A program made the translations under genes and the position numbers. From the NCBI RefSeq assembly GCF_007483665.1, contig NZ_ML660186.1, forward strand, positions 124,001 through 188,000: a DNA stretch of 64,000 nucleotides, in the 5' to 3' direction. How positions within the stretch are numbered: position 1 is the first letter of the stretch; each line of letters opens with the position of its first letter. The notes under the pieces are model-generated. The model did not search any database. It was not told the DNA's origin and was given only the letters and a program-made list of their open reading frames with translations. Source of the stretch: Catellatospora sichuanensis. GTDB lineage: Bacteria; Actinomycetota; Actinomycetes; Mycobacteriales; Micromonosporaceae. Positions 12,197-32,136 of this stretch are shown piece after piece.

Positions 12197-12210
12197 GCCC
12201 TCTCCTTTCT

Positions 12211-15137: not shown

Positions 15138-15197
15138 GGCAGAACTCCTCGCCTGGGTGGGGGTGGATGCGGTGTGGCGCACGGGGGTGTCCCGGTC

Positions 15198-16651: not shown

Positions 16652-17920
16652 TCACTCAGCAAAACGGCTGAGTCGCGTGGTGGGTCGACCCAGGACAAGG
16701 CTCACATTATGTCCGCCGAATCCGAATGAATTGGACAGTGCAAAACCGATGGGACTTTGCCGAGCCTTGCCGCGAATATGGTCGAGATCGCACGCGGGAT
16801 CGGGGTCTTCGAGGTTGACCGTCGGTGGCAGCAGCCCGTGCCCGAGCGCCATCACCGTCGCCGCGGCCTCGATCACCCCGGACGCGCCGAGCATGTGCCC
16901 GGTGACGCCCTTGTTCGAACTGACCGGCGGCATGGCCGAGGCGAACACCGTGTTGACCGCCAGCGACTCCGCCACGTCGCCCAACTTGGTGCTGGTCGCG
17001 TGGGCGTTGAGGTAGCCGATGTCGGCCGGCGACAGCCCCGCGTCGGCCAGCGCCCGGCGCATGCACTCGGCCTGGCCCTCGCCGTCGGGCCGGGGCGTGG
17101 TCGGGTGGTGGGCGTCGGTGGTCGCGCCCCAGCCGTGCAGCGTCGCGTACGCCGGACGACCCCGCGCGTCCGCGTCCGCGGCCCGCTCCAGCACCAACAC
17201 GCCTGCCCCTTCGGCCAGGACGAGGCCGTTGCGCCGGGTGTCGAACGGGCGGCTGGCCGCGGCCGGGTCCGCAGCCCAGCCCTTGGCCAGCGCGCGGGTG
17301 TTGCCGAAGGTGTCGGCCAGGGTCGGGAACAGCGGCGCCTCGCCGCAGCCCACCAGCACCACGTCCGCCTCGCCGTACCGCAGGATGCGCATGCCCTCGG
17401 CGATGGACTGCGCCCCCGCCGCGCACGCGGTGCCGATGGAGGAGCTGTAGCCGCGCAGGTCGTACTTGATGGCGATGCGCGCGGTGGCCATGTTCGGCAG
17501 CATCCCGGGCAGCAGGTACGGGCTCACCCCCAACCGGCCCTTCCGGGTACGGGTGATCACCTGCGCCTCCAGGGTGGCCAGTCCGCCCGTGCCGGACACC
17601 ACCGTGGCGGCCCGATACGGGTCCACGTCGCGGCCCACCACCAGGTCGGCGTCGGCCACCGCCCGGGCCGCGGCGACCAGCGCGTGCACGATGTACCGGT
17701 CCAGCGTGCGCGCCTCCGGGCCGGGCAGCACACTGGCCGCCTCGATGTCCGGGCCCTTGCCCATCACCTCCAGAGACCCCTGCGCGGCGTGCCCCTCGGG
17801 GGTGGCGATGATCCCGGACCGGCCGGTGCACAGGGCGTCGAAGATGTCGTCGAGATCCTGTCCGACCGGGGTGACCAGGCCGATGCCCGTGACGACGATG
17901 TCGGGACGAGGGCTCTTCAT
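16652..17920 (-). CDS. Beta-ketoacyl synthase A
   Basis: A complete 422-residue FabF/type II PKS-like ketosynthase. The triad is present: nucleophile Cys in IGTACAAGAQS, His in NAHATSTKLGD and His in SNKGVTGHMLGA. Closing motif SFGFGGHN. It condenses an acyl-primed enzyme with malonyl-ACP or a similar extender. The start overlaps the stop of AMP-ligase 2 (ATGA). It is the last gene of the operon that also carries a second ketosynthase, a half-ketosynthase and two ACPs; no ketoreductase or dehydratase is present, so chain reduction, if any, would borrow fatty-acid enzymes. Confidence 0.92.
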   Translation of the reverse strand: MKSPRPDIVVTGIGLVTPVGQDLDDIFDALCTGRSGIIATPEGHAAQGSLEVMGKGPDIEAASVLPGPEARTLDRYIVHALVAAARAVADADLVVGRDVDPYRAATVVSGTGGLATLEAQVITRTRKGRLGVSPYLLPGMLPNMATARIAIKYDLRGYSSSIGTACAAGAQSIAEGMRILRYGEADVVLVGCGEAPLFPTLADTFGNTRALAKGWAADPAAASRPFDTRRNGLVLAEGAGVLVLERAADADARGRPAYATLHGWGATTDAHHPTTPRPDGEGQAECMRRALADAGLSPADIGYLNAHATSTKLGDVAESLAVNTVFASAMPPVSSNKGVTGHMLGASGVIEAAATVMALGHGLLPPTVNLEDPDPACDLDHIRGKARQSPIGFALSNSFGFGGHNVSLVLGRPTTRLSRFAE

Positions 17921-19538: not shown

Positions 19539-20087
19539 CTACTCCTTCGGTCGGTTCACTTCGCTGTTGCGTACGAGCACGGCCAGCGCGCGGTCGCGCT
19601 CACCGGTGGCCAAGGCCTGCTCGGCCACCACGATCAGGGCCTCGTCGGCGTCGCCGTCGCGGATCAGCAGCGACGCCATCGCCAGGCCCTCGGCCAGGGA
19701 CGCCCCGACGGGGTCGGCGCCGCCGCCGGGGCTCAGCGAGACCACGGGCCCGCCCAGCTCCCACCGCGCCGCCACGTAACCGGCCACCGCGTTGGGCACG
19801 GCCTGGAAGAACAGCAGCGGCCCCAGCCGCCGCCGGCCGTCGACCGCCGATGCAACCTCGGCTGCGGTCGTGGCGTCGCCGGTCGCCGAAGAGATGATCA
19901 CTGCGGTACGCAGCCCGCGGTCCGCCGCGACGGGCGGCTGCCCATGCGCGCGGCTCAGACAGCGCCTGGCCGCCTCCGCCACCAGTGGGCTGAACGTCGA
20001 CATCACGAACCCGGCCAGCACCGGCGGCTCCGCATCCGCCTCGGACTCCGGCCATGCCCCCCGCGCGACCTCCACGAGAGTGCTCAT
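19539..20087 (-). CDS. Half-length ketosynthase-like protein without active cysteine
   Basis: Only 182 residues, matching the N-terminal half of the ketosynthase fold. FFQAVPNAVAGYVAARW followed by LGGPVVSLSPGGGADPVG is the region that in true ketosynthases holds the cysteine; here it is Gly/Pro-rich with no Cys. It resembles the short KS-like proteins (Ketoacyl-synt_2 type) that accompany type II systems such as aryl polyenes. Likely a structural or chain-length partner of ketosynthase A or B. It overlaps ketosynthase B by ATGA, and the frame ends normally, so it is not an obvious frameshift remnant. Confidence 0.75.
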   Translation of the reverse strand: MSTLVEVARGAWPESEADAEPPVLAGFVMSTFSPLVAEAARRCLSRAHGQPPVAADRGLRTAVIISSATGDATTAAEVASAVDGRRRLGPLLFFQAVPNAVAGYVAARWELGGPVVSLSPGGGADPVGASLAEGLAMASLLIRDGDADEALIVVAEQALATGERDRALAVLVRNSEVNRPKE

Positions 20088-21226
20088 GCCGCACCGACCA
20101 CTAGGGCGGTGTTCGCGCCGCCGAAGGCGGCGTTGAGGCTGAGGGCGTAGTCCGGTCCGGCAGTAGTCGTCTCGGTGAGTACGCGCAGGGGGCAGTCCGG
20201 GTCGGGGCCGAGGTAGCCGGCGTTGACCGGCAGGAAGCCCTCGCGCAGCGACAACACCGTGGCGACCAGTTCCAGCAGCGGTGAGGCTTCGAGTGCCTGC
20301 CCGTGCAGCGACTTGGTCGAACTGATCGGCACCACCAACGCGTGCGCGCCGAGGGTGCGCAGCAGTGCGGCGGACTCGGCGGCGTCGCTCTGCGCGGAGC
20401 CCGAGCCGTGCGCGTTGACATAGCCGATCTGTTCGGTGGCCAGCCCGGCGCGGCCGAGCGCGGCCTCGATCGCCCGGGCCAGGCCCGTGCCGTCGGGTCG
20501 CGGCTGCACCACGTGGTAGCCGTCTCCGGCGCGGCCCCAGCCGAGCAGCCGGGCCAGCGGTGTCGCGCCCCGGGACTGCGCGGCGCGGGCCGACTCCACC
20601 ACGACCGCGGCCACGCCGTCGCCGAGCAGCAGGCCCTTGCGTCCCGCGCTGAACGGGCGTACGGCGCCGTCGGCCGCGAGCGCCCGGCCCGCGTCGAACA
20701 GCGCGAACTGGTCCGCCTCGACCAGGTATCCGGCGGCCACCAGCAGCCGGTCGGCGTCGCCCGCGGCCACCGCGGCGGCGGCGTCGGCGACCGCGGTGCT
20801 GGCCGCGACGCAGGCACTGGTGTACGTGCGCACCGCCCCGGACAGGCCCGCCTTCTCCGCGACGGACAGCGTGAACGCGCCGGTGCGGCCGGGCCGGTCG
20901 GGCAGGCCGCGGGCCCCGTCGGGCTCGCCGTGCACGGCCAGCAGCAGGGGAGTCGTGGCCCGGAGCGCCGCGGACAGCCCGGCCGACGCGGCTGCCTCGT
21001 CCACCACCGCGAGCAGTTCGTCGAGCAGTACGGGCGCGCCGGGCAGCAGCGCGCCGACGCCCACCCGCCGGGCACTCACGTCGAAGCGGGTGACCGGCGC
21101 GAACGCCGGCCGCCCCGATCGCAACCCGGCCGACAGCGCCGCGGCGCCCCGGCCGTACGCGCTGACCGCCGACAACCCGGTGACCACGACCTGCGCGCGG
21201 TCCCCGGCGGGGCGGGGTTCAGTCAC
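20084..21226 (-). CDS. Beta-ketoacyl synthase B
   Basis: 380 residues. GTG at 21226 is taken as start: GGAG is eight bases upstream and it overlaps the ACP stop as GTGACTGA. The triad is Cys in TYTSACVAAST, His in NAHGSGSAQSD and His in SSTKSLHGQALEA, so it should be active and is not a classical chain-length factor, in which Cys becomes Gln. The N-terminal third is shorter and more divergent than in ketosynthase A. The pair A/B may form a heterodimer or act on different steps. Confidence 0.88.
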   Translation of the reverse strand: MTEPRPAGDRAQVVVTGLSAVSAYGRGAAALSAGLRSGRPAFAPVTRFDVSARRVGVGALLPGAPVLLDELLAVVDEAAASAGLSAALRATTPLLLAVHGEPDGARGLPDRPGRTGAFTLSVAEKAGLSGAVRTYTSACVAASTAVADAAAAVAAGDADRLLVAAGYLVEADQFALFDAGRALAADGAVRPFSAGRKGLLLGDGVAAVVVESARAAQSRGATPLARLLGWGRAGDGYHVVQPRPDGTGLARAIEAALGRAGLATEQIGYVNAHGSGSAQSDAAESAALLRTLGAHALVVPISSTKSLHGQALEASPLLELVATVLSLREGFLPVNAGYLGPDPDCPLRVLTETTTAGPDYALSLNAAFGGANTALVVGAA

Positions 21227-21509
21227 CGGCAGGCTCCGCCAGCACCTCGGCAAGCGCCTCGACCGCGCCGGTCACCGTCGTCATCCGCATGAGCACGTCG
21301 TCGTCGAGGTCGAGCATCCGCCCGTGGCGCTGCTCGACCTGGTGCACCAGCCACGCCAGCTCCAGCGAGTCGATGCGCTCGCGCACCTGCTCCGGGCTGC
21401 GCTCGCCGTAACCGGCCAGCATCGCGACGACCTCGGCCCGGTCCGGGGAGGCCGGTTCACGCCGGCGCGGCACGCCGAGGGACCCGGCGGCCGCAACAGG
21501 GGCGTCCAT
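21219..21509 (-). CDS. Acyl carrier protein 1
   Basis: 96 residues. RIDSLELAWLVHQVEQRHG holds the DSL site whose Ser receives phosphopantetheine, followed by the acidic helix II. An N-terminal extension of about 25 residues precedes the four-helix domain. The ATG shares a base with the stop of ACP 2. Carries acyl intermediates for the ketosynthases or, possibly, the product of the E1 pair. Confidence 0.85.
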   Translation of the reverse strand: MDAPVAAAGSLGVPRRREPASPDRAEVVAMLAGYGERSPEQVRERIDSLELAWLVHQVEQRHGRMLDLDDDVLMRMTTVTGAVEALAEVLAEPAGD

Positions 21510-21766
21510 CACGCGCTCGCCAGGTTGCCGCGCTCGCGGACGGCGTCGGCGAACTCGCCGACCGTCATGGCCGCCATCTGCTCGGCCTCCTCGTCGCTGA
21601 ACTTCACGCCGTAGGTGTCCTCCACCCGCACCGCAAGCTCGGCGACGGCCAGCGACTCCAGGTCCACGCCCGCCGAACCCAGCGGCGTGTCGGCGTCGAC
21701 GCCGTCGATCGGGTAGTTCATGTCCGCGATCGCGTCGATGATGAACTGGCGTACGTCGGTGCTCAT
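21509..21766 (-). CDS. Acyl carrier protein 2
   Basis: 85 residues, start at 21766 with AAGGAAG six bases upstream. The carrier site is GVDLESLAVAELAVRVED: the modified Ser follows Glu rather than Asp, as in a known subgroup of free-standing ACPs. Helix II and III are acidic (FSDEEAEQMAAMTVGEF). Two different ACPs side by side suggest separate starter and chain carriers. Confidence 0.88.
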   Translation of the reverse strand: MSTDVRQFIIDAIADMNYPIDGVDADTPLGSAGVDLESLAVAELAVRVEDTYGVKFSDEEAEQMAAMTVGEFADAVRERGNLASA

Positions 21767-21841
21767 GTTGACTTCCTTCCATGGTGGACGGCCCAACGGG
21801 CCCGGATCGGGGTGGCAGTCGGGGGGAGTGCGGTACGGCCG

Positions 21842-23254
21842 TCAGGAAGCCGGGCGCGGGTCCGCCGTACGCAGCACCGCGCGGTCGCGGACGAGCTTGC
21901 CCGTCGCGGTGCGGGGCAGCTGCTCGACGATGTGCAGCACACGCGGCCGTTTGTAGGGGGCAAGCCGCACGGCCAGCTCACCTTCGAGCGCCGCTGCCGC
22001 GGCCGGATCGGGCACCACGGCGAAGGCCTCGATGCCGCTGTCGAAGACGACGACCGCGCCCTCGACGCCGGGCAGGGCCGCCAGCGTGTGCTCCACCTCG
22101 GTCAGGTCCACCTTGAGCCCGCCGACCGACACCTGCGAGTCCAGCCGCCCGAGCACCGTCATCAGGCCGGTCGCCGGGTCGACCCGGCCCGCGTCCTTGG
22201 TGTGCAGCCAGCCGTCGACCCAGCGGGTCGGGTCCGACAGCCCGATGTACGGGCTCGCCGGTGTCGCGATCAGCAGCTCGCCGTCCTGCTCCCGGACGGT
22301 GATGCCGGGGGCGGGCAGAAGCGAGGGCCGGTGCTCGCCGAACAGGTCGGTGGCGATGACCCCGACCTCGGTCATGCCGTACATGTTGCCCAGCACGACG
22401 CCGTAGCGGTCGGTGAAACGCTGCGCCACCTCGGCGCGCACCAGCTCGCCGCCGGTGGTCATGCGCTTGAGCTGCGGCAGCTTCGGCGGGTTCGGGTTGG
22501 AGGCCAGCAGCTCGGTGTGGAACGGCACGCCCAGCAACGTGGTCGGCGCTTCTCCGGCGGCCACGGCGCGCAGTACGGCGTCGACGGTCAGCCGCTCCGG
22601 CAGCACCAGCTCGACGCCCGCGTGCAGGCAGTAGAGCAGGCCGCCGACCAGGCCCAGCACGTGCACCACGGAGGCCAGCAGCACCACCCGCTCGCCGGGC
22701 AGCGGCACCCCGTCGATGCGGGTGTACCGGTCGATCTCGGCGACCAACTGCTCGACGGTACGCGCGATGACCTTGGAGGGGCCGGTGGAGCCGGAACTGA
22801 GCTGCACCACGGCATGCCCGGTGTCGGCGGGACGGCCCTCGCGAGCCTCGGCGACGTCGGCGACCTCGTAGAAGGCACGCAACCCGCCCGGCAGCGTGCC
22901 GGTGCAGCTCACCACGACCTGCGGTTGCAACCGGTCCAGGGCACGATCGGTCTCGTACGCGGTCAGCCGGTGATCCAGCAGTGCGACCTGCGCGCCGATC
23001 CGCCACGCGGCCAGCAGGTTCGCCGCGTACGCCAGCGACGGCGGCAGCCGCAGCGCGACCGAGCCGCCCCGGGCCAGCCCCAGCCGGCGCAGCGTGTCCT
23101 CCCGGTCGGCGACGGCGTGGCGCAGGGCCGCCCGGTCGACGGGGGATCCGAAGTGGAGGCAGACGTCCCGGTCTTCGCCGGCGAGCAGGAGCTCGTCCAC
23201 CCAGTCGGGGGTCGCCGCCAAGGGCGCGCCGGTCGCCCAGCCCGTGTTGCTCAT
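21842..23254 (-). CDS. AMP-dependent ligase 3
   Basis: 470 residues; start at 23254 has GGAG seven bases upstream, an alternative ATG 15 codons up does not. Motifs: VQLSSGSTGPSKVIART, NMYGMTEVG, LHTKDAGRVDPATGLMTVLGR (A7/A8) and TATGKLVRDRA with the lysine. The N-terminal domain is short. Similar to the acyl-ACP ligases found with type II PKS genes. It is the first gene of the ACP/ketosynthase operon. Confidence 0.88.
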   Translation of the reverse strand: MSNTGWATGAPLAATPDWVDELLLAGEDRDVCLHFGSPVDRAALRHAVADREDTLRRLGLARGGSVALRLPPSLAYAANLLAAWRIGAQVALLDHRLTAYETDRALDRLQPQVVVSCTGTLPGGLRAFYEVADVAEAREGRPADTGHAVVQLSSGSTGPSKVIARTVEQLVAEIDRYTRIDGVPLPGERVVLLASVVHVLGLVGGLLYCLHAGVELVLPERLTVDAVLRAVAAGEAPTTLLGVPFHTELLASNPNPPKLPQLKRMTTGGELVRAEVAQRFTDRYGVVLGNMYGMTEVGVIATDLFGEHRPSLLPAPGITVREQDGELLIATPASPYIGLSDPTRWVDGWLHTKDAGRVDPATGLMTVLGRLDSQVSVGGLKVDLTEVEHTLAALPGVEGAVVVFDSGIEAFAVVPDPAAAAALEGELAVRLAPYKRPRVLHIVEQLPRTATGKLVRDRAVLRTADPRPAS

Positions 23255-23410
23255 GAATGCTCCGCCAGGTGTCGCAAAGGATGCTGGAACCTGGGTCATG
23301 CGCCCCCGACGGACCCGGTGAATCCGGAGACTAGCAAGGGGATCGATGTACTTGCAATGTTAACGTTAAGTCTGTCGATACGTGAATGGACCAGCCAAAA
23401 TTCGGGCTTT
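23255..23410 (-). promoter_or_regulatory. Promoter region of the ACP/ketosynthase operon
   Basis: Read on the minus strand, this gap lies between the MFS stop and ligase 3. It is locally AT-rich and holds the palindrome TTAACGTTAA (23360-23369), about 105 bases before the ligase start. No terminator-like hairpin is seen, so read-through from the MFS gene is possible. Confidence 0.3.
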
Positions 23411-25003
23411 TCATGGCAGATGAGAGGGCCGCAATCCGACATCAATCTGACTCATCGCGAATTCCATCCGGGCGATTTCCGCCCGCAGTCGGGCCACCTC
23501 GCGCCCCGCTCCGCCGTGCTCGCGCCGGGCCAGTTCCCGCACCGCCTGATGCACGGCGGGCGCGTCGAGTTGCGCCAGCGCGTGGGCCGCGGTCTTGGCG
23601 CGCAGCACCCGCCGCGGGGCCAGCCGGCGCAGCCCCGACCTGGCCCGCAGCGTCCACTCGCCGTCGGCGTAGCGCAACGTGACCCGGGGGCCGAGCGTGG
23701 TCGCGGCCAGCCCGTACCCGCGCGGCAGTGCCGCCGCCGGGTCGGCGGTCGGACCGCGGGCCCCGACGTCGTTGAGCTCACGCCAGACCCGGTGCCGGAC
23801 GACCGGGGTCAGGGTGACGGCGAAGTACAGCAGCGAGGACAGCAGCACGCCGTTGACGAAGCCCAACTGCTCCACGACCAGGCCGGCCAGCACGCCGCCG
23901 AGCGGGATGCCGGCCATGGCCACGGCCATGATGATGCCGCCCGCACGGGCCAGCATCGGGCTGGGCACCCGCTGGTAGATGACCGCGCCGATGGTCGGGT
24001 TCACCGAGCACATCGCCATGCCGCTGATGAACGTCACCACGACGATCACGGTCAGGTCGTCGGTGAGCGCGAAGACCAGGAAGCGGGGGGCGCCGCCCAC
24101 GAAGTAGCCGAAGACCAGCGCGCTGTAGCGCGGCAGGTACGGGGCCAGCGTCGCGAACACGACACTGCCCGCGATCATCCCCACGGCGTACGCCGCCGAG
24201 ACCGATCCGAGTGCGACCGGCGAGTGCAGCACCGTGAGCACCCACAAGGGCACGAACACCACGGCGCTGGCCTGGTTGAACAGGTTGGTGAAGAACAGCA
24301 TCCCGGTGACCGCCCGCAGCAGCGGCTCCGAGGTGAAGTACACGAAGCCGCCGTGCAGCGCGGTCAGGTACGGCTCGGCCGGGGCGGGTCTGGGCGGCTC
24401 GTCGGACTGCCGGGCCGGGTCCGGCACGAAGAACGCCACCAGCGCCGCGCCGATCAGGAAGCTCGCCGCGTCGACCCAGATCGCCCCGATCGCGCCGAAC
24501 GCGGCGATGGCGACGCCGCCCACCGAGGCCCCGATCAGCCCGGAGGTACGCAGCACGCCCTCACGGGCCGCCGACACCCGGGTGAAGTCCGTGCCCGCGG
24601 CATCCATCAGCGGCTTGAGCAGGTTGTTCTTGGACCGGTCGGCCTGCGCCCGGAGCACCCCGGCCAGGCTGGACAGCACGATCAGCACGCCGAAGCCGAG
24701 CTGCCCGGTCAGCGCGATCGCGCCCATCACCACCGCGCTGCCCGCGTCGGACAGCAGCGAGGTCGCGCGGGAGCCGATCCGGTCCTGCAGCGGGGCGGCC
24801 AGCACCCCGCTCAGCACGTACGCCAGCGTCTCCGCGCCCGCCACCACGCCGACCTTCACCGGGCTGCCGGTGGTGACCAGCACCAGCCAGGGAATGGCGA
24901 GGAAGGACATCCGGCCGCCGATGACCGAGATCGCCTCCGCGGCGACCAGGCCGGGGATGGCGGCTCTACGGCGCCAGGGCGACTGCGGCGTCGCGATGGA
25001 CAA
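23411..25003 (-). CDS. MFS exporter 2 with the same C-terminal extension
   Basis: 530 residues with twelve predicted membrane helices in about residues 15-410, resembling drug-efflux MFS proteins of the enterobactin-exporter type. After the last helix comes a soluble tail of about 110 residues: VTLRYADGEWTLRARSG, then AAHALAQLDAPAVHQAVREL and an Arg/Glu/Ala-rich helix (REVARLRAEIARMEFAMSQ). This tail aligns with that of the exporter at 5710-7689, although the membrane domains differ and this one lacks the long central loop. It diverges from the ATP-grasp gene. Confidence 0.88.
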   Translation of the reverse strand: MSIATPQSPWRRRAAIPGLVAAEAISVIGGRMSFLAIPWLVLVTTGSPVKVGVVAGAETLAYVLSGVLAAPLQDRIGSRATSLLSDAGSAVVMGAIALTGQLGFGVLIVLSSLAGVLRAQADRSKNNLLKPLMDAAGTDFTRVSAAREGVLRTSGLIGASVGGVAIAAFGAIGAIWVDAASFLIGAALVAFFVPDPARQSDEPPRPAPAEPYLTALHGGFVYFTSEPLLRAVTGMLFFTNLFNQASAVVFVPLWVLTVLHSPVALGSVSAAYAVGMIAGSVVFATLAPYLPRYSALVFGYFVGGAPRFLVFALTDDLTVIVVVTFISGMAMCSVNPTIGAVIYQRVPSPMLARAGGIIMAVAMAGIPLGGVLAGLVVEQLGFVNGVLLSSLLYFAVTLTPVVRHRVWRELNDVGARGPTADPAAALPRGYGLAATTLGPRVTLRYADGEWTLRARSGLRRLAPRRVLRAKTAAHALAQLDAPAVHQAVRELARREHGGAGREVARLRAEIARMEFAMSQIDVGLRPSHLP

Positions 25004-25179: not shown

Positions 25180-26469
25180 ATGCGGTTGCTCATGGTCGGA
25201 GCGGACCTGCCCGCCCTGGCGGCGGCCGCGCCCGATGTCGAGGTGACCGTGCTGCTCGGCGCGACCACGAAGGACGGCTGGCTGCCGCTGCCCGCCGGGG
25301 TGCGCACCGTCTTCGTCGACGACCACAAGAGCATCGACGCCGCCGTCAACGGCCTGCTGCGCGCCGGGTTCGGCCCCGGCTCGTTCGACGCGGTCTACGC
25401 CTACGACGACCCCGCGCTGATGACGGCCGCGGCGCTGGCCGCCATGCTCGGCGCCCGTGGCATCCCGCCGCGCACGGTGGCCCTGTTCCGCGACAAGTAC
25501 CTGCAGAAGCAGGCGCTGCGCGCGGCCGGGCTGCCGGTGACCGCATGCACGGTCGTCGAGGACATCCGCGACCTGCCCGCCGGATACCGGCTGCCGTATT
25601 CCAAGGCCGTGGTCAAGCCGGTGGCCGGGATGGCGACGCAGTCCACGTTCGTGGTCTCCGGCGACGCCGAGCTGGCCCGGATCAGCGCCCAGTGCCGCGC
25701 GAACAACACCGCCGCACGCACCTTCGTGATCGAGGAGTTCGTCACGGGCGAGGAGTGGTTCGCCGACGGTTACCTGTCCGAAGGGGAGCTGCGCTTCCTG
25801 AGCCTGGGCCGGTATGCCCAGCCCTGCCTGAGCGCGGTGCTGGAGAAGGCGCCGGTGCAGACGTACTGCCTCGACCCGGTGGCGGACAAGGGGGCGTACG
25901 ACCTGGCGGCGCCACTGGTCACCGACGCACTGCGGGTGCTGGGCCTGGCCGACGGCGTCTTCCACATGGAGCTGTTCCACCGGCCCGACACGGGCCGCCT
26001 GGTGTTCAGCGAGTGCGCGGCGCGCCGCGCGGGCGGCCCGATCAGCGACCAGATCCGCTACAAGTACGGCGTGGACCTGGCCGCCGACGGGGTGCGCGCC
26101 CTCCTGGAGCCGGTGGGCGAACCGGACGTGCGGGTCCGCGAGGGCGTGGTCGCCTCCACGTTCCTGCCGCTGCGGCCCGGCGTCGTGCTCGGTTACCCGA
26201 CCGCCGAGCAGGTGCTGGCGCAGCCCGACGTGGTGCACGCCCGGCTCTTCGTGCCCAAGGGCATGCGCGTGCAGGGCGGTGCGGCGAACACCTTCGCCCG
26301 CATGGGCGAGGTCACCGTGCACACCCCCGACGTGGCGACCGCTCAGCGGCGGCTCACCGAACTGGCCGACTGGTTCCGGCAGCACATCGAGGTGCTGCCG
26401 CTGGCCCCGACGCTGCGGGAGCTGTTCGCCGACCCCCGCAACGCCGACTTCGTCCACGCGGCCGGCTGA
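25180..26469 (+). CDS. ATP-grasp amide/peptide ligase
   Basis: 429 residues of the carboxylate-amine ligase type. N-terminal domain to about residue 100 (pre-ATP-grasp), then FRDKYLQKQALRAAGLPV with Lys106, AVVKPVAG with Lys146 (ATP phosphates), VIEEFVTGEEW with the adenine-hinge Glu185-Phe187, and the Mg-binding strand pair FHMELFHRP (Glu264) and FSECAARRAGG (Glu278, Arg282/283). Such enzymes activate a carboxylate as acyl phosphate and join it to an amine. In pheganomycin biosynthesis an enzyme of this type joins a phenylglycine-derived acid to a ribosomal peptide; here phenylglycine genes and a repetitive peptide lie 4-7 kb away. Followed by an esterase after 31 bases. Confidence 0.88.
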   Translation: MRLLMVGADLPALAAAAPDVEVTVLLGATTKDGWLPLPAGVRTVFVDDHKSIDAAVNGLLRAGFGPGSFDAVYAYDDPALMTAAALAAMLGARGIPPRTVALFRDKYLQKQALRAAGLPVTACTVVEDIRDLPAGYRLPYSKAVVKPVAGMATQSTFVVSGDAELARISAQCRANNTAARTFVIEEFVTGEEWFADGYLSEGELRFLSLGRYAQPCLSAVLEKAPVQTYCLDPVADKGAYDLAAPLVTDALRVLGLADGVFHMELFHRPDTGRLVFSECAARRAGGPISDQIRYKYGVDLAADGVRALLEPVGEPDVRVREGVVASTFLPLRPGVVLGYPTAEQVLAQPDVVHARLFVPKGMRVQGGAANTFARMGEVTVHTPDVATAQRRLTELADWFRQHIEVLPLAPTLRELFADPRNADFVHAAG

Positions 26470-26500
26470 CCGCCGCAGGTCGTCAGATCAGGAGAGTGTG

Positions 26501-27436
26501 ATGCCACTCCACCAGCAGGTCCAGGCGATGCGCGCACGTCGCGAAGCCAGCGGCACCCCGCAGCTGTACACGCTGTCGGTGGCGGAGGCCCGCGCCGCAG
26601 ACCTCGCCTCGATCCAGGCGTCCGGGGGCGACCCCGAGCCGGTCGCCGAGGTCGTCGACCGCGAGATCGAGGGTCCCGGCGGGCCGCTGCCGATCCGGAT
26701 CTACCGTCCCGTGCTCGGCGGCGAGCTGCCGGTGCTGGTCTACTTCTTCGGCGGCGGCTGGACGCTGGGCACCATCGACACCTCCGACGCGGTGTGCCGC
26801 AGCCTCGCCAACGCCGCCGGCTGCCTGGTCGTCGCCGCGGGTTACCGCCTCGCCCCGGAGCACAAGTTCCCCGCCGCGGTGCACGACTGCCACGCCGCGG
26901 TCCGCTGGGTCGCCGCGAACGCCGCCGCCATCGGCGCGGACCCGGCCCGCATCGCCGTCGGCGGCGACAGCGCGGGCGGCAACCTGGCCGCCGCGGTGAC
27001 CCTGCTGGCCCGCGAGGACGGCGACCTGCCGCTGGCCGGGCAGCTGCTGGTGTATCCGAACACCGACCACCGCTCGCACACCGCCTCGCTGCGCGAGGGC
27101 ACCGACCCCTACCTGTTCAACGCCACCTCGGTCGCCTGGTACTGGGCCAACTACCTGGCCACACCCGAGGACGGGCTGAACCCGCTGGCCTCGCCGCTGC
27201 GCGCGGAAAGCCTGGCCGGCCTGCCCTCGGCCCTGATCGTCACCGCCGAGTACGACCCGCTGCGCGACCAGGCCGAGGAGTACGCCCGCCGCCTCGGGCG
27301 CGACGGCGTGCCGGTGACGCTGACCCGATACGACGGCATGGTCCACGGCTTCTTCTGCATGGGCGGCGAACTCGACGCCGGCCGCCGCGCCCTCGCCCAG
27401 GCCGCCGACCAGCTCCGCAAGTGGTTCACCACCTGA
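26501..27436 (+). CDS. Alpha/beta hydrolase, HSL family, with FGGG oxyanion motif
   Basis: 311 residues. Nucleophile Ser in GGDSAGGN, acid in EYDPLRDQ, His in MVHGFF. The motif before the first core helix, HGGGW in the hormone-sensitive-lipase family, reads FFGGGW: His becomes Phe while the glycines that form the oxyanion hole remain. ATG at 26501 with GGAG ten bases before. Same operon as the ATP-grasp ligase; it may remove an ester or N-acyl group from an intermediate. No signal peptide. Confidence 0.88.
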   Translation: MPLHQQVQAMRARREASGTPQLYTLSVAEARAADLASIQASGGDPEPVAEVVDREIEGPGGPLPIRIYRPVLGGELPVLVYFFGGGWTLGTIDTSDAVCRSLANAAGCLVVAAGYRLAPEHKFPAAVHDCHAAVRWVAANAAAIGADPARIAVGGDSAGGNLAAAVTLLAREDGDLPLAGQLLVYPNTDHRSHTASLREGTDPYLFNATSVAWYWANYLATPEDGLNPLASPLRAESLAGLPSALIVTAEYDPLRDQAEEYARRLGRDGVPVTLTRYDGMVHGFFCMGGELDAGRRALAQAADQLRKWFTT

Positions 27437-27471
27437 CCCCGCCGCGCACCCGCCCCGTCCCCGGCGCTTCG

Positions 27472-27562
27472 CACCCCGCTTTACATCGACGCTGGCCTAT
27501 CACATCGAGAATGATCTCTCAAAAGTCGATGTAATAGGCCAGCGTCGATCAAAAGTGGGGTG
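27472..27562. terminator. Long nested hairpin between converging genes
   Basis: Outer arms of about 29 bases (27472-27500 and 27534-27562) pair with three mismatches, the inner 16 bases ATCGACGCTGGCCTAT perfectly. Inside, ACATCGA (27502-27508) pairs with TCGATGT (27526-27532). It lies between the esterase and SRPBCC stops and can serve both. Confidence 0.75.
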
Positions 27563-27567
27563 GGCTG

Positions 27568-28281
27568 TCAGGCGTAGACGGCCTGCAGCCAGTCCTCGAG
27601 GGACTTCTGCTCGGCGGCGGCGTCGGCGTTCGCGTCGAAGTGGTGCACGGCCACGCCGACCGGCGCGCCGAACGCGTTGCGGCCGAAGAAGCGGTACAGC
27701 GCGTCGTGGGTGCGCAGCCCGACGAAGTTCGGGTGCAGGTAGTCGACGACCGCCTCGGTCTGCCCGCCCGGCAGCGCGACCCGGACCGTGTCGTCCTGCT
27801 TGCTCTGCCCGGTCAGGCCGAGCGCGCCGCGCAGCGTGGTGAAGCCGTCGGGCGAGTTCGACGCCGCCGGGGCGTCGGCCGACAGGTAGACGACCGGGCG
27901 GCGGCTGAAGTGGGCCAGGTACTGCCCGAGGGTGTGCAGGTAGAAGTCGGTGTGCTGGTCGGCGCCGTCGTACTGGTTGTCCCAGTCGTCGGTGAACACG
28001 CCGCTGTGCACGTACCGGAACCAGGTCTTGCCGCCGTCACGGCCCTCGACGGTGTGCTCGACCTGGTTGAACCAGCCGTTGTCGCCGTCCATCCGGGAGG
28101 CGAGGCGGTGCGGCGGGTCCCACTCGGCGACGGTGCCGCCGAACGCGGCCGCCCCGCCGACGCGCGGCTCGAACTCCATCGGCCACAGCCAGCCGCCGTT
28201 GCCGGTGGTGACGGCGTCCCAGTATTCCTCCGGGGTGGTCCGCAGCTCGCCCTCGCGAACGATCTCGAACTTCTTGCCCAT
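27568..28281 (-). CDS. SRPBCC (AHSA1-like) domain protein
   Basis: 237 residues. The first 140 residues fit the START-like SRPBCC fold as found in AHSA1 proteins (YWDAVTTGNGGWLWPMEFE, WDPPHRLASRM); the C-terminal part is a variable second half. Function unknown; such proteins bind small hydrophobic ligands and are very often encoded with an ArsR regulator, as here. The regulator stop is 5 bases upstream, so it is one operon. Not obviously tied to the metabolite cluster. Confidence 0.85.
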   Translation of the reverse strand: MGKKFEIVREGELRTTPEEYWDAVTTGNGGWLWPMEFEPRVGGAAAFGGTVAEWDPPHRLASRMDGDNGWFNQVEHTVEGRDGGKTWFRYVHSGVFTDDWDNQYDGADQHTDFYLHTLGQYLAHFSRRPVVYLSADAPAASNSPDGFTTLRGALGLTGQSKQDDTVRVALPGGQTEAVVDYLHPNFVGLRTHDALYRFFGRNAFGAPVGVAVHHFDANADAAAEQKSLEDWLQAVYA

Positions 28282-28285
28282 GGTG

Positions 28286-28915
28286 CTACTCCTTCTCGGT
28301 GTCTTGCTCAGTCAGTGGGGTGCCGTCCGCGCGCGGCAGCAGCAGGCTCGGGTGCAGCCCGACGACCAGCCGGTGCCGGCGGCCGCCGGTGGCGCTCCCG
28401 TCGTGATAACGGCTGACCAGGGCGGCCAGGGTCTCGGTCAGCTCGGCCGCGAACGCGGCCCGGTCGCCCGCCGAGGCGAAACGGATCTCGCTGTCCACCG
28501 CGAACGTGGCCAGCGGCCGCCGCGCGGCCCGCGCCCCCGTGATCAGCTCGCCGACCTCACGCACCAGCCGCGACGCCAGCGCCAGCAGCCAGCGAGCCGA
28601 CTGCTGGTCGGGCGAGCGCTCCGGATCGGGCGCCACGGCCGCGAACGCCGCAGGCGAGATCACGTAGGACGCCGCGGTCGCCCGCAGCACCCGCTCCGTG
28701 CAGTTGCCCTTCCGCCGCTCCTCGACCAGTTCGATGAGCCCATGGCTCTCCAGCGTCCGCAGGTGGTGGTTGACCTTCTGCCGGGTGAGCCCCGCCTGCG
28801 CGGCCAGCGTGGTCGCCGACCCCGGCACAGCCAGCGCAGCCAGCAACCGGGCCCGGACGGGGTCGAGCGACACCTCGGCCACGGCCGGGTCGTCGATCAC
28901 GGCGACTTCGAACAT
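28286..28915 (-). CDS. ArsR-type HTH regulator
   Basis: 209 residues; start at 28915 preceded by GGAGGGTGGGGGC. N-terminal winged helix-turn-helix: DPVRARLLAALAVPGSATTLAAQAGLTRQKVNHHLRTLESHGLIE in outline, recognition helix around TRQKVNHHLRTL. The rest is an alpha/beta ligand domain without cysteine metal sites. It probably represses itself and the SRPBCC gene through the GACAAC repeat just upstream. Frames reading further up lack a ribosome site. Confidence 0.88.
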   Translation of the reverse strand: MFEVAVIDDPAVAEVSLDPVRARLLAALAVPGSATTLAAQAGLTRQKVNHHLRTLESHGLIELVEERRKGNCTERVLRATAASYVISPAAFAAVAPDPERSPDQQSARWLLALASRLVREVGELITGARAARRPLATFAVDSEIRFASAGDRAAFAAELTETLAALVSRYHDGSATGGRRHRLVVGLHPSLLLPRADGTPLTEQDTEKE

Positions 28916-28932
28916 GCCCCCACCCTCCCACC

Positions 28933-28948
28933 GACAACAAAAGTTGTC
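28933..28948 (-). promoter_or_regulatory. Probable ArsR operator
   Basis: GACAAC-AAAA-GTTGTC is a perfect inverted repeat 18 bases upstream of the ArsR start. On the minus strand it follows TTGACA, a consensus -35 box that overlaps it, which is ideal for autorepression. Confidence 0.6.
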
Positions 28949-28986
28949 AAGGAGGGTAACGCGGTCGGTGGCGGCCGCGACGGTCC

Positions 28987-29007
28987 TGCACTTTCCCGGA
29001 AAGTGCA
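28987..29007. promoter_or_regulatory. 21-base perfect palindrome upstream of the ArsR gene
   Basis: TGCACTTTCC-C-GGAAAGTGCA. Part of it (GCACTTTCCCCG) recurs 30 bases away at 29029-29040. It could be an operator or end the aminotransferase transcript. The 310-base gap 28916-29225 holds this, the ArsR operator and the tandem repeat, and no gene that I can support. Confidence 0.4.
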
Positions 29008-29051
29008 CGAATCAGCCTCGCCAAAGCCGCACTTTCCCCGAAACTGCAGCC

Positions 29052-29110
29052 GGACACGGACACGGACACGGACGCGGACACGGACGCGGACACGGACACG
29101 GACACGGACA
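29052..29110. repeat. Hexanucleotide tandem repeat (GGACAC)n
   Basis: Nine full GGACAC units, two of them changed to GGACGC, plus a partial tenth, in the intergenic gap after the aminotransferase gene. Likely variable in length between strains. Too short and too uniform for a CRISPR array. Confidence 0.9.
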
Positions 29111-29225
29111 GCTCGCGTTCCGGTGTGCTGGCCTTCGTGGGCGGCGTCGGCGGCCGGGTGCGTGGCATGAGCGCCCCGTTCGCGGGCGCGGGCCGGGCGC
29201 GGGCCGGGCGCGTGGGGGAGCAGGG

Positions 29226-30566
29226 TCAGGCGATGGACTCGCGGAGGAGGGTGGCCAGGCGGCGTACGCCCTCTTCGAGGGTGTCGGGGTCGAGGCCGCT
29301 GCAGGACAGGCGTAGCGAGTGGGTGCCGCCGTCGGTGTAGAAGAAGCTCATGGGGGTCCACAGGACGCCGTGGCGCGAGGCGGAGACCTCCAGGAGCTTC
29401 TCGTCGGCGGCGATGGGCACGTCGACCACCGCGAAGAAGCCGCCGGCGGGCAGGTTCCAGGAGATGCCGGCCTCGTCGCGCCACGGGGCGGGCAGGTGTC
29501 GGTCGAGGGCGTCGAGCAGGCGCAGCAGGTTCCGCCGGTAGAACGCGATCTTGTCCACATTGGCGGCCTTGAGGCTGCAGCCCGACTCCACCAGCAGGCC
29601 GCCTACCACGGCCTGCGCGATGGGGGACGTGTTGACCGTGATCATGCTCTTGATCGCGGACAGTTCCTCGGCCAGCAGGGTGCGGTGCCCAGTCGCGTCG
29701 ACGACGGTCTGGTCGGCGACCAGGAAGCCGATGCGCGCGCCCGGGAAGCACGACTTGGCGAACGAGCCCAGGTAGATCACGCGCTGTTCGCGGTCGAGGG
29801 ACTTCAGCCGGGGCCGGGGCCGGTCGTCGAGCCCGAACAGGCCGTACGGGTCGTCCTCCAGGATCAGCAGATCCTCGGCGGCGGCGACGTCGAGCAGCGC
29901 GTGCCGGGCGGGCAGGTCCAGGCAGCGGCCGGACGGGTTGGCGAAGTCGGGCACCAGGTACAGCGCGCGGGGGTGGCGGCCCTGGGCGCGCACCGCGCGG
30001 GCGACCTCGGCGACCCGGGCCGGGTCCAGGCCGTCCGGCCCCTCCGGCACCGGCACCACGTCGATGTTCAGCACCCGCGCCGCGCCGGTGATGCCGACGT
30101 AGCACGGCTCGGCGGCCAGCAGCACGTCGTCGGGGCCCGCACACAGGCCGCGCAGCGCCATGACCATCGCCTCCTGGCAGCCCGCCGTCACCGAGATGGC
30201 CTCGGCGGGCACCTCGATGCCCTCGTCGACGGCGAGCATGCGGGCGATGAGCCCGTGGATCTGGCCGTTGGTGCGGCCGTACTGCATCAGCGCACGGCGG
30301 ATCTGGTCCGGGGTGCTGCCCTGATCGCCCAGATACGCGACGTACACGTCGAGGTAGCGGGCGATGTCGGCGGTGTCGTAGAAGCCCTCGTACGGCCGCC
30401 CGGCGGCCAGCGAGATCGCGTCGGGGTAGCGCCCGGCGACCTCGTTGAGGAAGTTCATCGAGGCGGCGACGGGGTCGCTGACCGAGGCGTGCATCGCCTC
30501 CTTGACCAGCTCCACCGGTCTGCCGTCAGTTCGCGACTGCGGGGCTCGCTCCGCTCGCTTCACCAT
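29226..30566 (-). CDS. hpgT: PLP aminotransferase, hydroxyphenylglycine type
   Basis: 446 residues, start at 30566 with GGAG nine bases before. A fold-type I aminotransferase of the MocR-like/2-aminoadipate class: NPSGRC, DDPYGLFGL and the Schiff-base lysine in GSFAKSCFPGARIG. The N-terminal region (AISLAAGRPYEGFYDT) fits the phenylglycine aminotransferases of glycopeptide clusters, which convert 4-hydroxyphenylglyoxylate to 4-hydroxyphenylglycine using tyrosine as amino donor. The assignment rests on its place 14 bases after the oxidase that makes this oxoacid and on hmaS in the same region. It could also act on another aromatic oxoacid. Confidence 0.8.
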   Translation of the reverse strand: MVKRAERAPQSRTDGRPVELVKEAMHASVSDPVAASMNFLNEVAGRYPDAISLAAGRPYEGFYDTADIARYLDVYVAYLGDQGSTPDQIRRALMQYGRTNGQIHGLIARMLAVDEGIEVPAEAISVTAGCQEAMVMALRGLCAGPDDVLLAAEPCYVGITGAARVLNIDVVPVPEGPDGLDPARVAEVARAVRAQGRHPRALYLVPDFANPSGRCLDLPARHALLDVAAAEDLLILEDDPYGLFGLDDRPRPRLKSLDREQRVIYLGSFAKSCFPGARIGFLVADQTVVDATGHRTLLAEELSAIKSMITVNTSPIAQAVVGGLLVESGCSLKAANVDKIAFYRRNLLRLLDALDRHLPAPWRDEAGISWNLPAGGFFAVVDVPIAADEKLLEVSASRHGVLWTPMSFFYTDGGTHSLRLSCSGLDPDTLEEGVRRLATLLRESIA

Positions 30567-30579
30567 GGGCCAACTCCGT

Positions 30580-31668
30580 TCAGGCGTCGCGGCGGTCGGG
30601 CAGGAGCACCGCATCACGGCCGATGTCGGCCAGTCGCGGCCGCCCGGCCAGCGCCATCGTGTGTTCCAGCTCGCCGGTGAGCATGGTCAGCAGCCCGGCC
30701 ACGCCGTCGGCGCCGTCGACCGCGAGCGCCCACAGCGCCGGGCGGCCGACGAGCACCGCGCTCGCGCCGAGGGCCAGCGCCACGAAGACGTCGCGGCCGT
30801 GGCGTACGCCCCCGTCGAGCAGCACCGGGCAGCGGCCCGCGACCGCCGCGACCACCTCGGGCAGCGCGCGCAGTGCGGGCACCGCGCCGTCGAGCTGGCG
30901 TCCGCCGTGGTTGGACACGATGAGCGCGTCGACGCCGTGCTCGACGGCGCGGTCGGCGTCCTCGGCGGTGAGCACTCCCTTGAGCACCAGCGGCAGGTCG
31001 GTGCGGCCGCGCAGCCAGGCCAGGTCGGCCCAGGTGACGGTCTGGTCGAAGGTCTGCGCGGCGTGCGCGGCGATGGCGGAGGCACCCTCGCGGTGTTCGT
31101 GCGTGGTGGCCATGAGCGCGTCGTCGAGGTTGACCGCCCGTACCTCGGGGTCGACGGCGAAGCCGTTGCGCTGGTCGCGCAGCCGTTGCCCGATGCGTGG
31201 CGCGTCGACGGTCAGCACCAGCGCCCGGTAGCCGGCGTCCTGGGCCCGGCGGGCCAGCTCGGCGAGCACGGCGCGGCGGCGCAGCCAGTACAGCTGCAGC
31301 CAGAGCGGGCCGGCCGCGGCCGCGGCGATGTCCTCCAGGCTGCGGCTGGCGAAGATGCTCACCACGAACAGCGCGCCGTGGGCGCCGCGGGCCGTGGCGA
31401 CCTCGCCGTCGGGATGGGCCAGCCGGTGGTACGCCGTCGGCGCGATGCCGACCGGTGTGGCCAGCGAGTCGCCGAGCAGTTTGCCGGCCGTGTCGCAGAC
31501 CGAGACGTCGACGAGCACCCGGGGCCGCAGCTCGGCGCGGTCGAACAGCCTGCGGCCGGCGCTCAGGGTGAGCTCCGCGCCGCTGCCGCCGTCGATGTAG
31601 TCCCAGACGTCCGCGGGCAGCCGGGGCCGGGCGAGGGCGCGGTAGTCGTCGGTGCACAGGATCGGCAA
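30580..31668 (-). CDS. hmo: 4-hydroxymandelate oxidase (FMN-dependent)
   Basis: 362 residues from a TTG at 31668 that has GGAGG four bases upstream; an ATG at 31824 would add 52 residues encoded by AT-rich, promoter-like DNA and is unlikely. FMN alpha-hydroxyacid dehydrogenase family: WLQLYWL, LVLTVDAPRIGQRLRDQRNGF, LVLKGVL (Lys), IVSNHGGRQLDG (catalytic His and Arg) and VLLDGGVRHG. These closely follow the hydroxymandelate oxidases of glycopeptide clusters. It oxidises 4-hydroxymandelate to 4-hydroxyphenylglyoxylate with O2. First gene of a two-gene operon with the aminotransferase, diverging from the small peptide gene. Confidence 0.88.
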   Translation of the reverse strand: MPILCTDDYRALARPRLPADVWDYIDGGSGAELTLSAGRRLFDRAELRPRVLVDVSVCDTAGKLLGDSLATPVGIAPTAYHRLAHPDGEVATARGAHGALFVVSIFASRSLEDIAAAAAGPLWLQLYWLRRRAVLAELARRAQDAGYRALVLTVDAPRIGQRLRDQRNGFAVDPEVRAVNLDDALMATTHEHREGASAIAAHAAQTFDQTVTWADLAWLRGRTDLPLVLKGVLTAEDADRAVEHGVDALIVSNHGGRQLDGAVPALRALPEVVAAVAGRCPVLLDGGVRHGRDVFVALALGASAVLVGRPALWALAVDGADGVAGLLTMLTGELEHTMALAGRPRLADIGRDAVLLPDRRDA

Positions 31669-32007
31669 CGGACCTCCACAGCTTCGTACCCGTCCGCGGC
31701 CCACGCTAAAGGAATCGATCGACGCCGCACAATACTCAGCGATCTTTATGAAGTGATTGTCGTAAGAATGATTTAGGTACCGATTTCGATGGGTGACATC
31801 CACGATGTGTCGGCACCGCGACACTCATAGCCGTCTATTGGGACAGTTCACGACGAGTTTTCGGAAGATCAATATTGAGGGACTTCACTGCCGAGTCAAC
31901 AATCGCTACAGTCGCTAACGCGCCACTCGAGCGCTTCGGTGACAGACCATGCAGGCATCGGAGCGCGCTGTGCCGTGCCCTTCAAGGTCCGAGGAGGAGG
32001 TGTGATC
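31669..32007. promoter_or_regulatory. Divergent promoter region, hmo / peptide gene
   Basis: 339 bases. The stretch 31700-31910 is much richer in A+T than the surroundings and can hold promoters in both directions. For the peptide gene, the only strong ribosome site is GGAGGAGG at 31993-32000. The peptide frame is open back to 31879 and contains GTG codons at 31939 and 31975, but neither has a ribosome site. Confidence 0.45.
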
Positions 32008-32094
32008 ATGGAGGTTTCGAAGAAGGAGGTTGCCAAGCGCGAGGTTGCCAAGCGCGAGGTAGCCCAGCGTGAGGTCGACGGCGTGGTCGCCTGA
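32008..32094 (+). CDS. Repetitive 28-residue peptide, candidate multi-core precursor
   Basis: ATG at 32008, seven bases after GGAGGAGG; TGA at 32092. After the Met the peptide is five units in a row: EVSKK, EVAKR, EVAKR, EVAQR and a final EVDGVVA. The 15-base DNA unit GAGGTTGCCAAGCGC occurs twice exactly, the others vary at third positions as well as in sense. Four units end in a basic residue, which would suit cleavage between them. A period of five puts the valines all round a helix, so it is not an amphipathic helix. Its own hairpin terminator follows at once. In the pheganomycin pathway a precursor with short repeated cores ends in a longer one in the same way. No leader is seen. Too short for gene-finders; expression unproven, a regulatory peptide or chance frame is possible. 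Confidence 0.6.
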   Translation: MEVSKKEVAKREVAKREVAQREVDGVVA

Positions 32095-32107: not shown

Positions 32108-32136
32108 CCGGGGCGCGGCCTCGCGCCGCGCCCCGG
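32108..32136 (+). terminator. Hairpin terminator of the peptide gene
   Basis: CCGGGGCGCGG (32108-32118) pairs perfectly with 32126-32136 around 7 bases, 13 bases past the peptide stop. It makes the peptide gene a single-gene transcript and isolates it from the sensor kinase downstream. Confidence 0.7.

Follow-up and report, generated by a model that had tools for sequence, protein, structure and literature searches.

The 64,000-nucleotide stretch of the Catellatospora sichuanensis genome analysed here (the window; contig NZ_ML660186.1, positions 124,001 to 188,000) contains a gene cluster with a very small gene at its edge. This gene encodes 28 residues (MEVSKKEVAKREVAKREVAQREVDGVVA, then a stop codon) arranged as five units that each start with Glu-Val, hereafter the EV peptide. 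The initial annotation had described this frame, with its strong ribosome site, an ATP-grasp ligase some 5.5 kb away and hmaS further on, and all of these are present as described. The cluster extends from 10224 to 31824 in the gene order of Table 1, with an AHSA1-like gene and a helix-turn-helix (HTH) gene between the alpha/beta hydrolase and the aminotransferase; the EV peptide gene follows Hmo, a 4-hydroxymandelate-oxidase-like gene. Our results suggest that the peptide is a ribosomal precursor of several short cores, which may be capped by the ligase with an acid made by the cluster.

The open reading frame at 32008-32094 is a real gene. The window has a single run of at least four tandem EV units, and 60 first-order shuffles have none; five tandem 5-mers with two fixed residues are found in the peptide frame and in one lying antisense to it, and in 0 of 30 shuffles. 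Substitutions among close species are, per site, mostly synonymous: the pooled proportions of synonymous (pS) and nonsynonymous (pN) differences are 0.106 and 0.029 for six genomes (the window and L024-L028), and comparison of these six with L029 gives a pS of 0.30-0.34 and a pN of 0.08-0.09. The contrast is weaker, 0.21 versus 0.10, for the distant species pair L031/L033, which differ by 3 and 5 changes. The promoter-like block reads TTTCCT-17-TACGCT in the alignment of three distant Catellatospora species. A terminator had also been proposed; the window has a strong GC hairpin with a 12-bp stem but no T run. Such a hairpin lies shortly 3' of the stop codon in 11 of 11 aligned Catellatospora, with one compensatory change (A-T for G-C) in L033.

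A frame of this type, beside Hmo or aminotransferase genes, is kept in every related cluster that we found. All 11 Catellatospora genomes examined have the gene, and outside this genus it lies beside the same gene pair in five genomes from four genera: Rhizocola hellebori and the genomes labelled G028, G019, G070 and G049, the last two representing one further genus. Throughout these 16 cluster genomes from five genera, the EV peptide adjoins either Hmo or its paired aminotransferase. Frames with at least four EV units numbered 25 in 126 overlapping sequences, 1.23 Mb in all, with ATP-grasp or cluster genes at their centre, and every one was a copy of this gene at the Hmo locus. A second set of 66 loci (1.31 Mb; overlapping stretches with a similar bias) contained 144 intergenic frames of 20-80 codons with an ATG and a ribosome site. 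Twenty-four of these were internally repetitive, of which 20 rows (19 distinct genes), located at Hmo/aminotransferase or ATP-grasp genes, encode peptides of the EV type or Glu-rich ones and four are at L061, L106, L215 and L216; this count missed at least three peptides, one unlisted despite a passing score (L024) and two scoring below 6 (L123 and L197). In 300 genomes of the family, an EV profile (A3) gave matches at E<=1e-3 in 12, all at the Hmo locus, with the Catellatospora genome G010 at 0.0044. Matches up to E=1 occurred in 99 of the 300 genomes; the weaker ones were often in long frames and look like chance, and they include, at 0.033, an EV peptide from a second locus in G009 (see below). 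Absence in these searches is weak evidence, because A3 missed Rhizocola, which was later found by profile A4, and A4 at E<=0.1 did not report the peptide in seven of eight close Catellatospora in which it is present.

The surrounding cluster varies more than the position of the peptide. Seven further Catellatospora have an identical gene order from HmaS to Hmo, apart from L068, where no HTH gene was found; the part from E1 to PhyH was read in the window copy alone for this genus. Rhizocola has the cluster without the major facilitator superfamily (MFS), AHSA1-like and HTH genes and with Hmo and the aminotransferase inverted; the EV peptide gene (MSEVAKEVAKEVAREVATSLE) has followed Hmo in this rearrangement and keeps its divergent orientation. 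In G028, one contig carries the ATP-grasp, hydrolase, acyl-AMP ligases, ketosynthases, HmaS, PhyH and O-methyltransferase, with no DUF3050 or E1 gene found on it, and another carries Hmo, the aminotransferase and the EV peptide (MAEVEKEVSREVEKREVEVGL). G019 has the genes from E1 beta through Hmo and an EV peptide (MEVAKEVAKEVARREVEGAVLAVREIEGAVQ) but no ATP-grasp in the cluster. G070 and G049 share Hmo, the aminotransferase, hydrolase, acyl-AMP ligases, carrier protein and ketosynthases, and their ATP-grasp belongs to a second subfamily; the EV peptide genes (two in G070, MARREVTPGSFELNFEVNPGTFDVNFEVSGSVALNFEVEPQAAL and MARFEVDPSGALTKFSEVDPSGALTKFSEVDPSGALTKFSEVSPGRTLSL; one in G049, MTRREVDPSTSDAKFEVEVREVAFEVEVREVAL) lie between the aminotransferase and this ATP-grasp, inside the cluster. 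HmaS is inside the G070 stretch and just outside the stretch read for G049. Altogether, 15 of the 16 genomes have an ATP-grasp in the cluster (13 of the window type and 2 of the second type, with ligase and peptide on different contigs in G028). The peptide and the ketosynthase set occur together in 13 of 13 genomes read on that side (the window, seven Catellatospora, Rhizocola, G028, G019, G049 and G070, leaving out G002, G006 and G007).

The peptides have about 4 to 6 units, and nearly all units begin with Glu-Val; one in G019 starts with Glu-Ile instead, and the second-locus copy of G008 contains the degenerate stretch REIEAAREV. The G049 peptide allows more than one division into units. 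Units range from 4 (EVAK) to 12 (EVDPSGALTKFS) residues, with EVAKR and EVSGSVALNF among the others, and the last units have distinct and mostly non-basic tails (EVDGVVA, EVDGIVAN, EVATSLE, EVEVGL and EVEPQAAL). Val is conserved as strictly as Glu, which is itself among the most constant residues and occurs once per unit. As unit number, length and tails vary while the Glu-Val starts stay, the EV peptide has the look of a multi-core precursor, and we consider this assignment highly probable. Constant starts and variable ends are also what would be expected if a ligase must recognise the N terminus of a released core. Units ahead of the last end in Lys or Arg in Catellatospora, Rhizocola and G028 and could be cleaved there by a trypsin-like enzyme. 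Most units in G070 and G049, however, end in Phe, Ser or Leu, hence there is no common basic cleavage site. A trypsin-like protein with a P domain is encoded near the G070 cluster, and a penicillin-amidase-type protein of about 1100 residues (L147:4949-8254) adjoins the G019 EV peptide; neither was seen at the other clusters, for which no aimed search was made.

The initial annotation likened the system to that of pheganomycin and proposed a comparison of the ATP-grasp protein with PGM1. This part of the claim did not hold. The window ligase matches ATP-grasp_4, with LAL_C2 at 27.6 bits (below the cut-off of 29.4), and its PDB matches in sequence and profile searches are RizA (4wd3), BL00235 (3vot) and 30vh; by these comparisons it groups with the L-amino acid ligases RizA and BL00235. 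A profile of 11 orthologues left PGM1 (3wvq, in the database) unmatched up to E=10, and hhalign of the ligase to a PGM1-type protein gave a probability of 0.3%; by these tests the ligase therefore falls outside the PGM1 family. Of 13 cluster genomes tested for the PGM1_C domain (11 Catellatospora, Rhizocola and G028), 12 lack it, and the G028 copy is on another contig. Homology of the window ligase to PGM1 was therefore rejected. The rest of the likeness stood, in that a multi-core precursor lies by phenylglycine-type genes and ATP-grasp genes recur with repeat peptides. An AlphaFold model of the ligase had a mean pLDDT of 61.3. Across the 300 family genomes, window-type ligases of at least 55% identity occur in 13, all among the 16 cluster genomes, the next match being at 44%. 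At three of seven Streptomyces loci with a homologue of this ligase, one frame encodes a hydrophobic segment plus two or three copies of a DIGWPxP repeat (L106:909-1139; L105 near 8330; L104 near 14711) and ends about 60 bases before the ATP-grasp-like frame; these frames possibly encode another repeat precursor.

Second-type ligases were found in the 11 Catellatospora, Rhizocola, G028, G019, G070 and G049. Compared with the window ligase, BLASTP aligns roughly half the length at 26% identity (hhalign probability 99.4%), and the best 60 of 175 PDB matches are headed by BL00235 and BacD. In three distant Catellatospora, a second-type ATP-grasp at another locus immediately follows the gene of a second EV peptide (MEVAQREVAREVAREVAREVAAL and variants); an SGNH hydrolase gene lies upstream and, in G009 and G007, an MFS transporter gene near by. 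The other eight Catellatospora have the second-type ligase but no such peptide in the stretch scanned. G049 and G070 have another second-type copy directly behind Glu-rich repeat peptides (MREVEPQIKDLGF..., MRIEIEPQVKD...; MREVEPQIKDLGFREVEPQVKDLGFEMEPQLKDAPLPEAR, with a sister peptide, and MRIEIEPQVKDAGFRIEDEPQIKFESEPQVKEAAAA), and an acyl-AMP ligase related to window 4073-5710 is near by at these loci. Genes for Glu-rich peptides of the EVEPQIKD type (L201:10559-10678 and 11012-11107; L197:10618-10725), which precede second-type ATP-grasps in the neighbourhood of an acyl-AMP ligase, have a hairpin-like sequence 3' of the stop codon. In G019 (L208, about 10590, minus strand), a frame of 11 codons (MDYEEIAADKA) that has a strong ribosome site lies upstream of a second-type ATP-grasp.

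The acid pathway resembles the hydroxyphenylglycine supply of glycopeptide clusters (HmaS 2r5v and Hmo 5zzp). The best PDB match of the window HmaS is 2r5v (311 bits), followed by two HPPD-labelled entries (285-287 bits) and the HPPD 1t47 (239 bits). In eight of eight genomes tested, the cluster HmaS is accompanied by a second homologue at 36-47% identity (in two pieces in G028), and by sequence the cluster enzyme is distinct from the housekeeping HPPD. One motif reads TLFEP in the window HmaS, TLIEP in 2r5v and PINEP in 1t47; it is not decisive alone, because the HPPD-labelled entries 7yvv and 3zgj also read TLIEP. The entry 3zgj is reportedly a hydroxymandelate synthase variant. For Hmo, lactate oxidase 7f22 (314.4 bits) and the Hmo 5zzp (312.1 bits) are nearly tied. 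The aminotransferase has class I/II family and generic PDB matches, with no equivalog over cut-off among the matches listed (25 of 46); the Hmo and aminotransferase genes that had been annotated as divergent from the EV peptide are present, but the HpgT label comes from context and no family model names it. The clusters differ from glycopeptide clusters in having a ketosynthase/carrier set, and a Pfam scan of 20 region proteins (within 2424-31824, minus E1 beta, the carrier protein and the ketosynthase at 16652-17920) revealed no nonribosomal peptide synthetase. A plasmid of Streptomyces sp. NBC_00335 encodes a homologue of the acyl-AMP ligase (58.7%) with two carrier proteins, a ketosynthase, a chain-length factor and a further ketosynthase, adjoining pabB and a class IV aminotransferase (p-aminobenzoate-type genes). 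By analogy, this suggests that the ketosynthase/carrier/acyl-AMP ligase set takes an aromatic starter; 4-hydroxyphenylglycine may then be either the acid of the ligase itself or first built into an aryl chain. At L215 (NZ_CP108007.1), a Streptomyces plasmid cluster has an acyl-AMP ligase/carrier/ketosynthase set joined to YcaO-TfuA and pabB genes.

From the gene, its conservation, the cluster and the family of the ligase, which are direct observations, we propose the following scheme. The 28-residue gene would encode a multi-core precursor without a long leader, to be cut ahead of each Glu-Val into short EVAKR-like cores and a longer last core, EVDGVVA. The ATP-grasp enzyme would activate, as an acyl phosphate, the carboxylate of a non-proteinogenic acid made by the cluster and link it to each core at the N-terminal Glu. 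This acid would come from the HmaS/Hmo/aminotransferase branch, either as 4-hydroxyphenylglycine itself or as a product that the ketosynthase/acyl-carrier set builds on it. We give this scheme as a whole a probability of about 0.5. That the peptide is a substrate of an ATP-grasp ligase seems somewhat favoured, and capping of the N terminus with a cluster-made acid evenly poised; cleavage, N-terminal joining and the identity of the acid are what we infer. The cluster also encodes ketosynthases, a carrier protein and acyl-AMP ligases, so the acid need not be hydroxyphenylglycine, and plain 4-hydroxyphenylglycine appears unlikely. In favour of the scheme, both ligase subfamilies match L-amino acid ligases and each other, and known L-amino acid ligases activate the N-terminal partner.

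Several observations weigh against this scheme. The strongest is from G019, which has the cluster and the peptide but a 327-base gap instead of an ATP-grasp between the acyl-AMP ligase and the hydrolase, and no match to the window ligase genome-wide at E<=1e-20. It has two second-type ligases (53%) elsewhere in the genome, one of which, as a guess, could serve the cluster. The window ligase lies 5.5 kb from the EV peptide, and no protease shared by the clusters was found. The 16-20 kb read for each of seven Streptomyces homologues of the ligase (41-44%) contain no Hmo or EV peptide, and neither do the loci L056-L064 of more distant homologues. Second-type ligases form a broad family, with a match at E<=1e-15 in 92 of 160 family genomes, and a repeat peptide was seen in 5 of 20 second-type regions, which is no unbiased rate because three of the five were chosen for a peptide already seen.

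It is also possible, although rather unlikely, that the peptide is a multi-core precursor for which the ATP-grasp enzyme is not the partner. The ligase would then form a dipeptide at some other point of the pathway, and acylation or cross-linking of the EV peptide would fall to the acyl-AMP ligase and carrier protein, the hydrolase, the DUF3050 protein or the PhyH oxygenase. G019, which retains the whole set minus the ligase, fits this explanation. So does the position of the peptide, which in the window, Rhizocola, G028 and G019 lies beside Hmo/aminotransferase and not beside the ligase, as does the fact that every type of cluster read encodes an acyl-AMP ligase, a carrier protein and ketosynthases. 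However, second-type ATP-grasps adjoin repeat peptides at several loci, inside and outside the cluster. The hydroxyphenylglycine genes might instead feed an aryl chain of a type II polyketide synthase (PKS)-like pathway, with the EV peptide belonging to a second, co-located pathway. The NBC_00335 plasmid set beside pabB, with its suggestion of an aromatic starter, is consistent with this, but the constant company of peptide and ketosynthase set in the 13 genomes read makes it a distant prospect.

The C-terminal Glu of LysW is the acceptor site for LysX. A comparable role for the EV peptide, with the Glu side chains of the repeats as acceptors or in graspetide-like Glu-Lys/Ser cross-links, would account for the constancy of one Glu per unit, and ATP-grasp enzymes perform both chemistries in other families (for graspetides, PMC8939145). 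We regard it as improbable: in G007 the peptide at the second locus (MEVAQREVAREVAREVAREVAREVAREVAR) lacks any Lys, Ser, Thr or Cys to act as acceptor, Val is kept as strictly as Glu, the EV peptides have no leader, and the top structure matches are L-amino acid ligases, RimK/LysX-type chains being much weaker. Graspetides are set apart by the same features. A regulatory leader peptide or a small signalling protein of the adjacent two-component system, and not a biosynthetic substrate, is suggested by the sensor kinase and response regulator genes that directly follow the EV peptide gene in the window. The hairpin, however, separates it from them; about 2.3 kb with an ABC-transporter match lies between peptide and kinase in three distant Catellatospora; no homologue of the window kinase was found beside the peptide in the Rhizocola, G028 and G019 stretches read; and the same peptide type recurs beside ligases at other loci. 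We consider a regulatory role very improbable.

Capping of ribosomal cores by the ligase thus remains our preferred reading, and the most economical account, within the limits given above, is the logic of pheganomycin carried out by a different ligase family. Pheganomycin of Streptomyces cirratus, in work on PGM1 attributed to Noike (2015), reportedly has a ribosomal precursor with several cores. The two systems are alike in a ribosomal precursor with short cores, a phenylglycine-type acid pathway and an ATP-grasp ligase, as far as the accessible parts of PMC8939145 and PMC8359417 describe it, and unlike in the family of the ligase and in the Glu-Val-initial cores of the window. The acid genes also differ: those of pheganomycin comprise a type III PKS with amino- and amidinotransferases (PMC8939145, in part), whereas the window has HmaS, Hmo and an aminotransferase plus ketosynthases, and neither a type III PKS nor an amidinotransferase was among the 20 proteins scanned. 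A tandem NVKDR pattern, modelled on the pheganomycin cores, was found in 0 of 392 Streptomyces genomes, which says little because the pattern may not match the true core. The nearest solved ATP-grasp enzymes are RizA and BL00235 for the window ligase and BL00235 and BacD (3vmm) for the second type. They join free amino acids to small partners; they differ from the window system, in which ribosomal repeat peptides co-occur. Fungal precursors processed by Kex2 (PMC7329392, in part) similarly have tandem cores separated by basic residues, as in the Catellatospora peptides, but the EV system is bacterial and the G070/G049 units mostly lack basic ends.

The general idea is already in print: decRiPPter candidate families of ribosomally synthesized and post-translationally modified peptides (RiPPs) include ATP-grasp enzymes dissimilar to PGM1 (PMC7794033, in the part available), and hybrids of Pgm1 and biarylitide systems pair an ATP-grasp gene with a small precursor gene in bacteria (PMC13417212, likewise in part). 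The portions of these two papers at hand mention no Glu-Val repeat precursor or hydroxyphenylglycine cluster. Among the matches listed in the literature (subscription papers being outside the scope), none describes an EV-repeat/hydroxyphenylglycine/ATP-grasp system, and hydroxymandelate together with ATP-grasp gave no match. Judged by sequence, the system is likely a new, non-homologous variant of ribosome-plus-ligase peptide synthesis. More tentatively, and with some doubt, there may be a new class of ribosomal natural products in the Micromonosporaceae, in which leaderless tandem cores of 4-12 residues, with a Glu-Val or Glu-rich start and a hypervariable remainder, are capped by at least two subfamilies of L-amino acid ligase type.

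Few known pathways pair a ribosomal peptide with a stand-alone ligase that adds a non-proteinogenic acid. If this broader reading is correct, this mode of synthesis arose with a ligase family unrelated in sequence to PGM1 and is used with several acid pathways, at hydroxyphenylglycine/ketosynthase clusters, acyl-AMP-ligase loci and SGNH-hydrolase/MFS loci. A second, non-homologous family acting on naturally variable cores would make the strategy more general and provide new N-terminal capping enzymes. It would also expose clusters whose precursor genes, of 21-50 codons, may well be skipped by gene finders, and the products would be new Glu-Val peptides with a hydroxyphenylglycine or aryl-polyketide cap.

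TABLE 1. Features of the EV peptide cluster (window coordinates) and EV peptides at the second locus (locus coordinates)
Feature	Position	Strand	Basis or remark
Probable 2-oxoacid dehydrogenase E1 beta	10224..11198	-	Context beside E1 alpha; conserved in relatives
2-Oxoacid dehydrogenase E1 alpha	11198..12277	-	Family match
O-Methyltransferase	12302..13294	-	Family match
DUF3050, haem-oxygenase-like	13389..14177	-	Family match
PhyH-type dioxygenase	14208..15182	-	Family match
4-Hydroxymandelate synthase (HmaS)	15198..16319	-	Family and PDB matches
Ketosynthase, 422-aa frame	16652..17920	-	Similarity to other ketosynthases
Acyl-AMP ligase	17917..19533	-	Family match
Short ketosynthase-like/chain-length-factor-like protein	19539..20087	-	Family match
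Ketosynthase	20084..21253	-	Family match
Acyl carrier protein	21509..21796	-	Position, and annotation of the counterpart in a related plasmid cluster
Acyl-AMP ligase, loading enzyme by context	21842..23299	-	Family match
MFS transporter	23411..25003	-	Kept in Catellatospora; absent here in Rhizocola
ATP-grasp ligase, L-amino acid ligase type	25180..26469	+	ATP-grasp_4; LAL_C2 below cut-off
Alpha/beta hydrolase (LipP1/HSL family)	26501..27436	+	Beside or near ligase; kept in G019 too
Class I/II aminotransferase, HpgT-type by context	29226..30617	-	Family match
Hmo-like FMN 2-hydroxyacid oxidase	30580..31824	-	Family and PDB matches; first start codon of frame probably too far upstream
Promoter-like block TTCACT-17 bp-TACAGT	31884..31912	+	Spacing kept in 11 of 11 Catellatospora; alignment by eye
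Shine-Dalgarno AGGAGGAGG	31992..32000	+	7 bases ahead of ATG of EV peptide gene; conserved in alignment
EV-repeat peptide gene, 28 aa, five Glu-Val-initial units	32008..32094	+	Open reading frame, conservation and coding statistics
Terminator-like GC hairpin, 12-bp stem, without T run	32108..32136	+	Sequence and alignment
Second-locus EV peptides	G009 L150:4299-4370; G008 L163 ~1500; G007 L214:10676-10765		

Among the other genes of the cluster, the DUF3050 protein has a single PDB match, 9vwb, which is itself labelled a DUF3050 domain-containing protein. The same domain occurs in the mangotoxin mgo operon, as mgoB, according to the part of PMC3298696 available.

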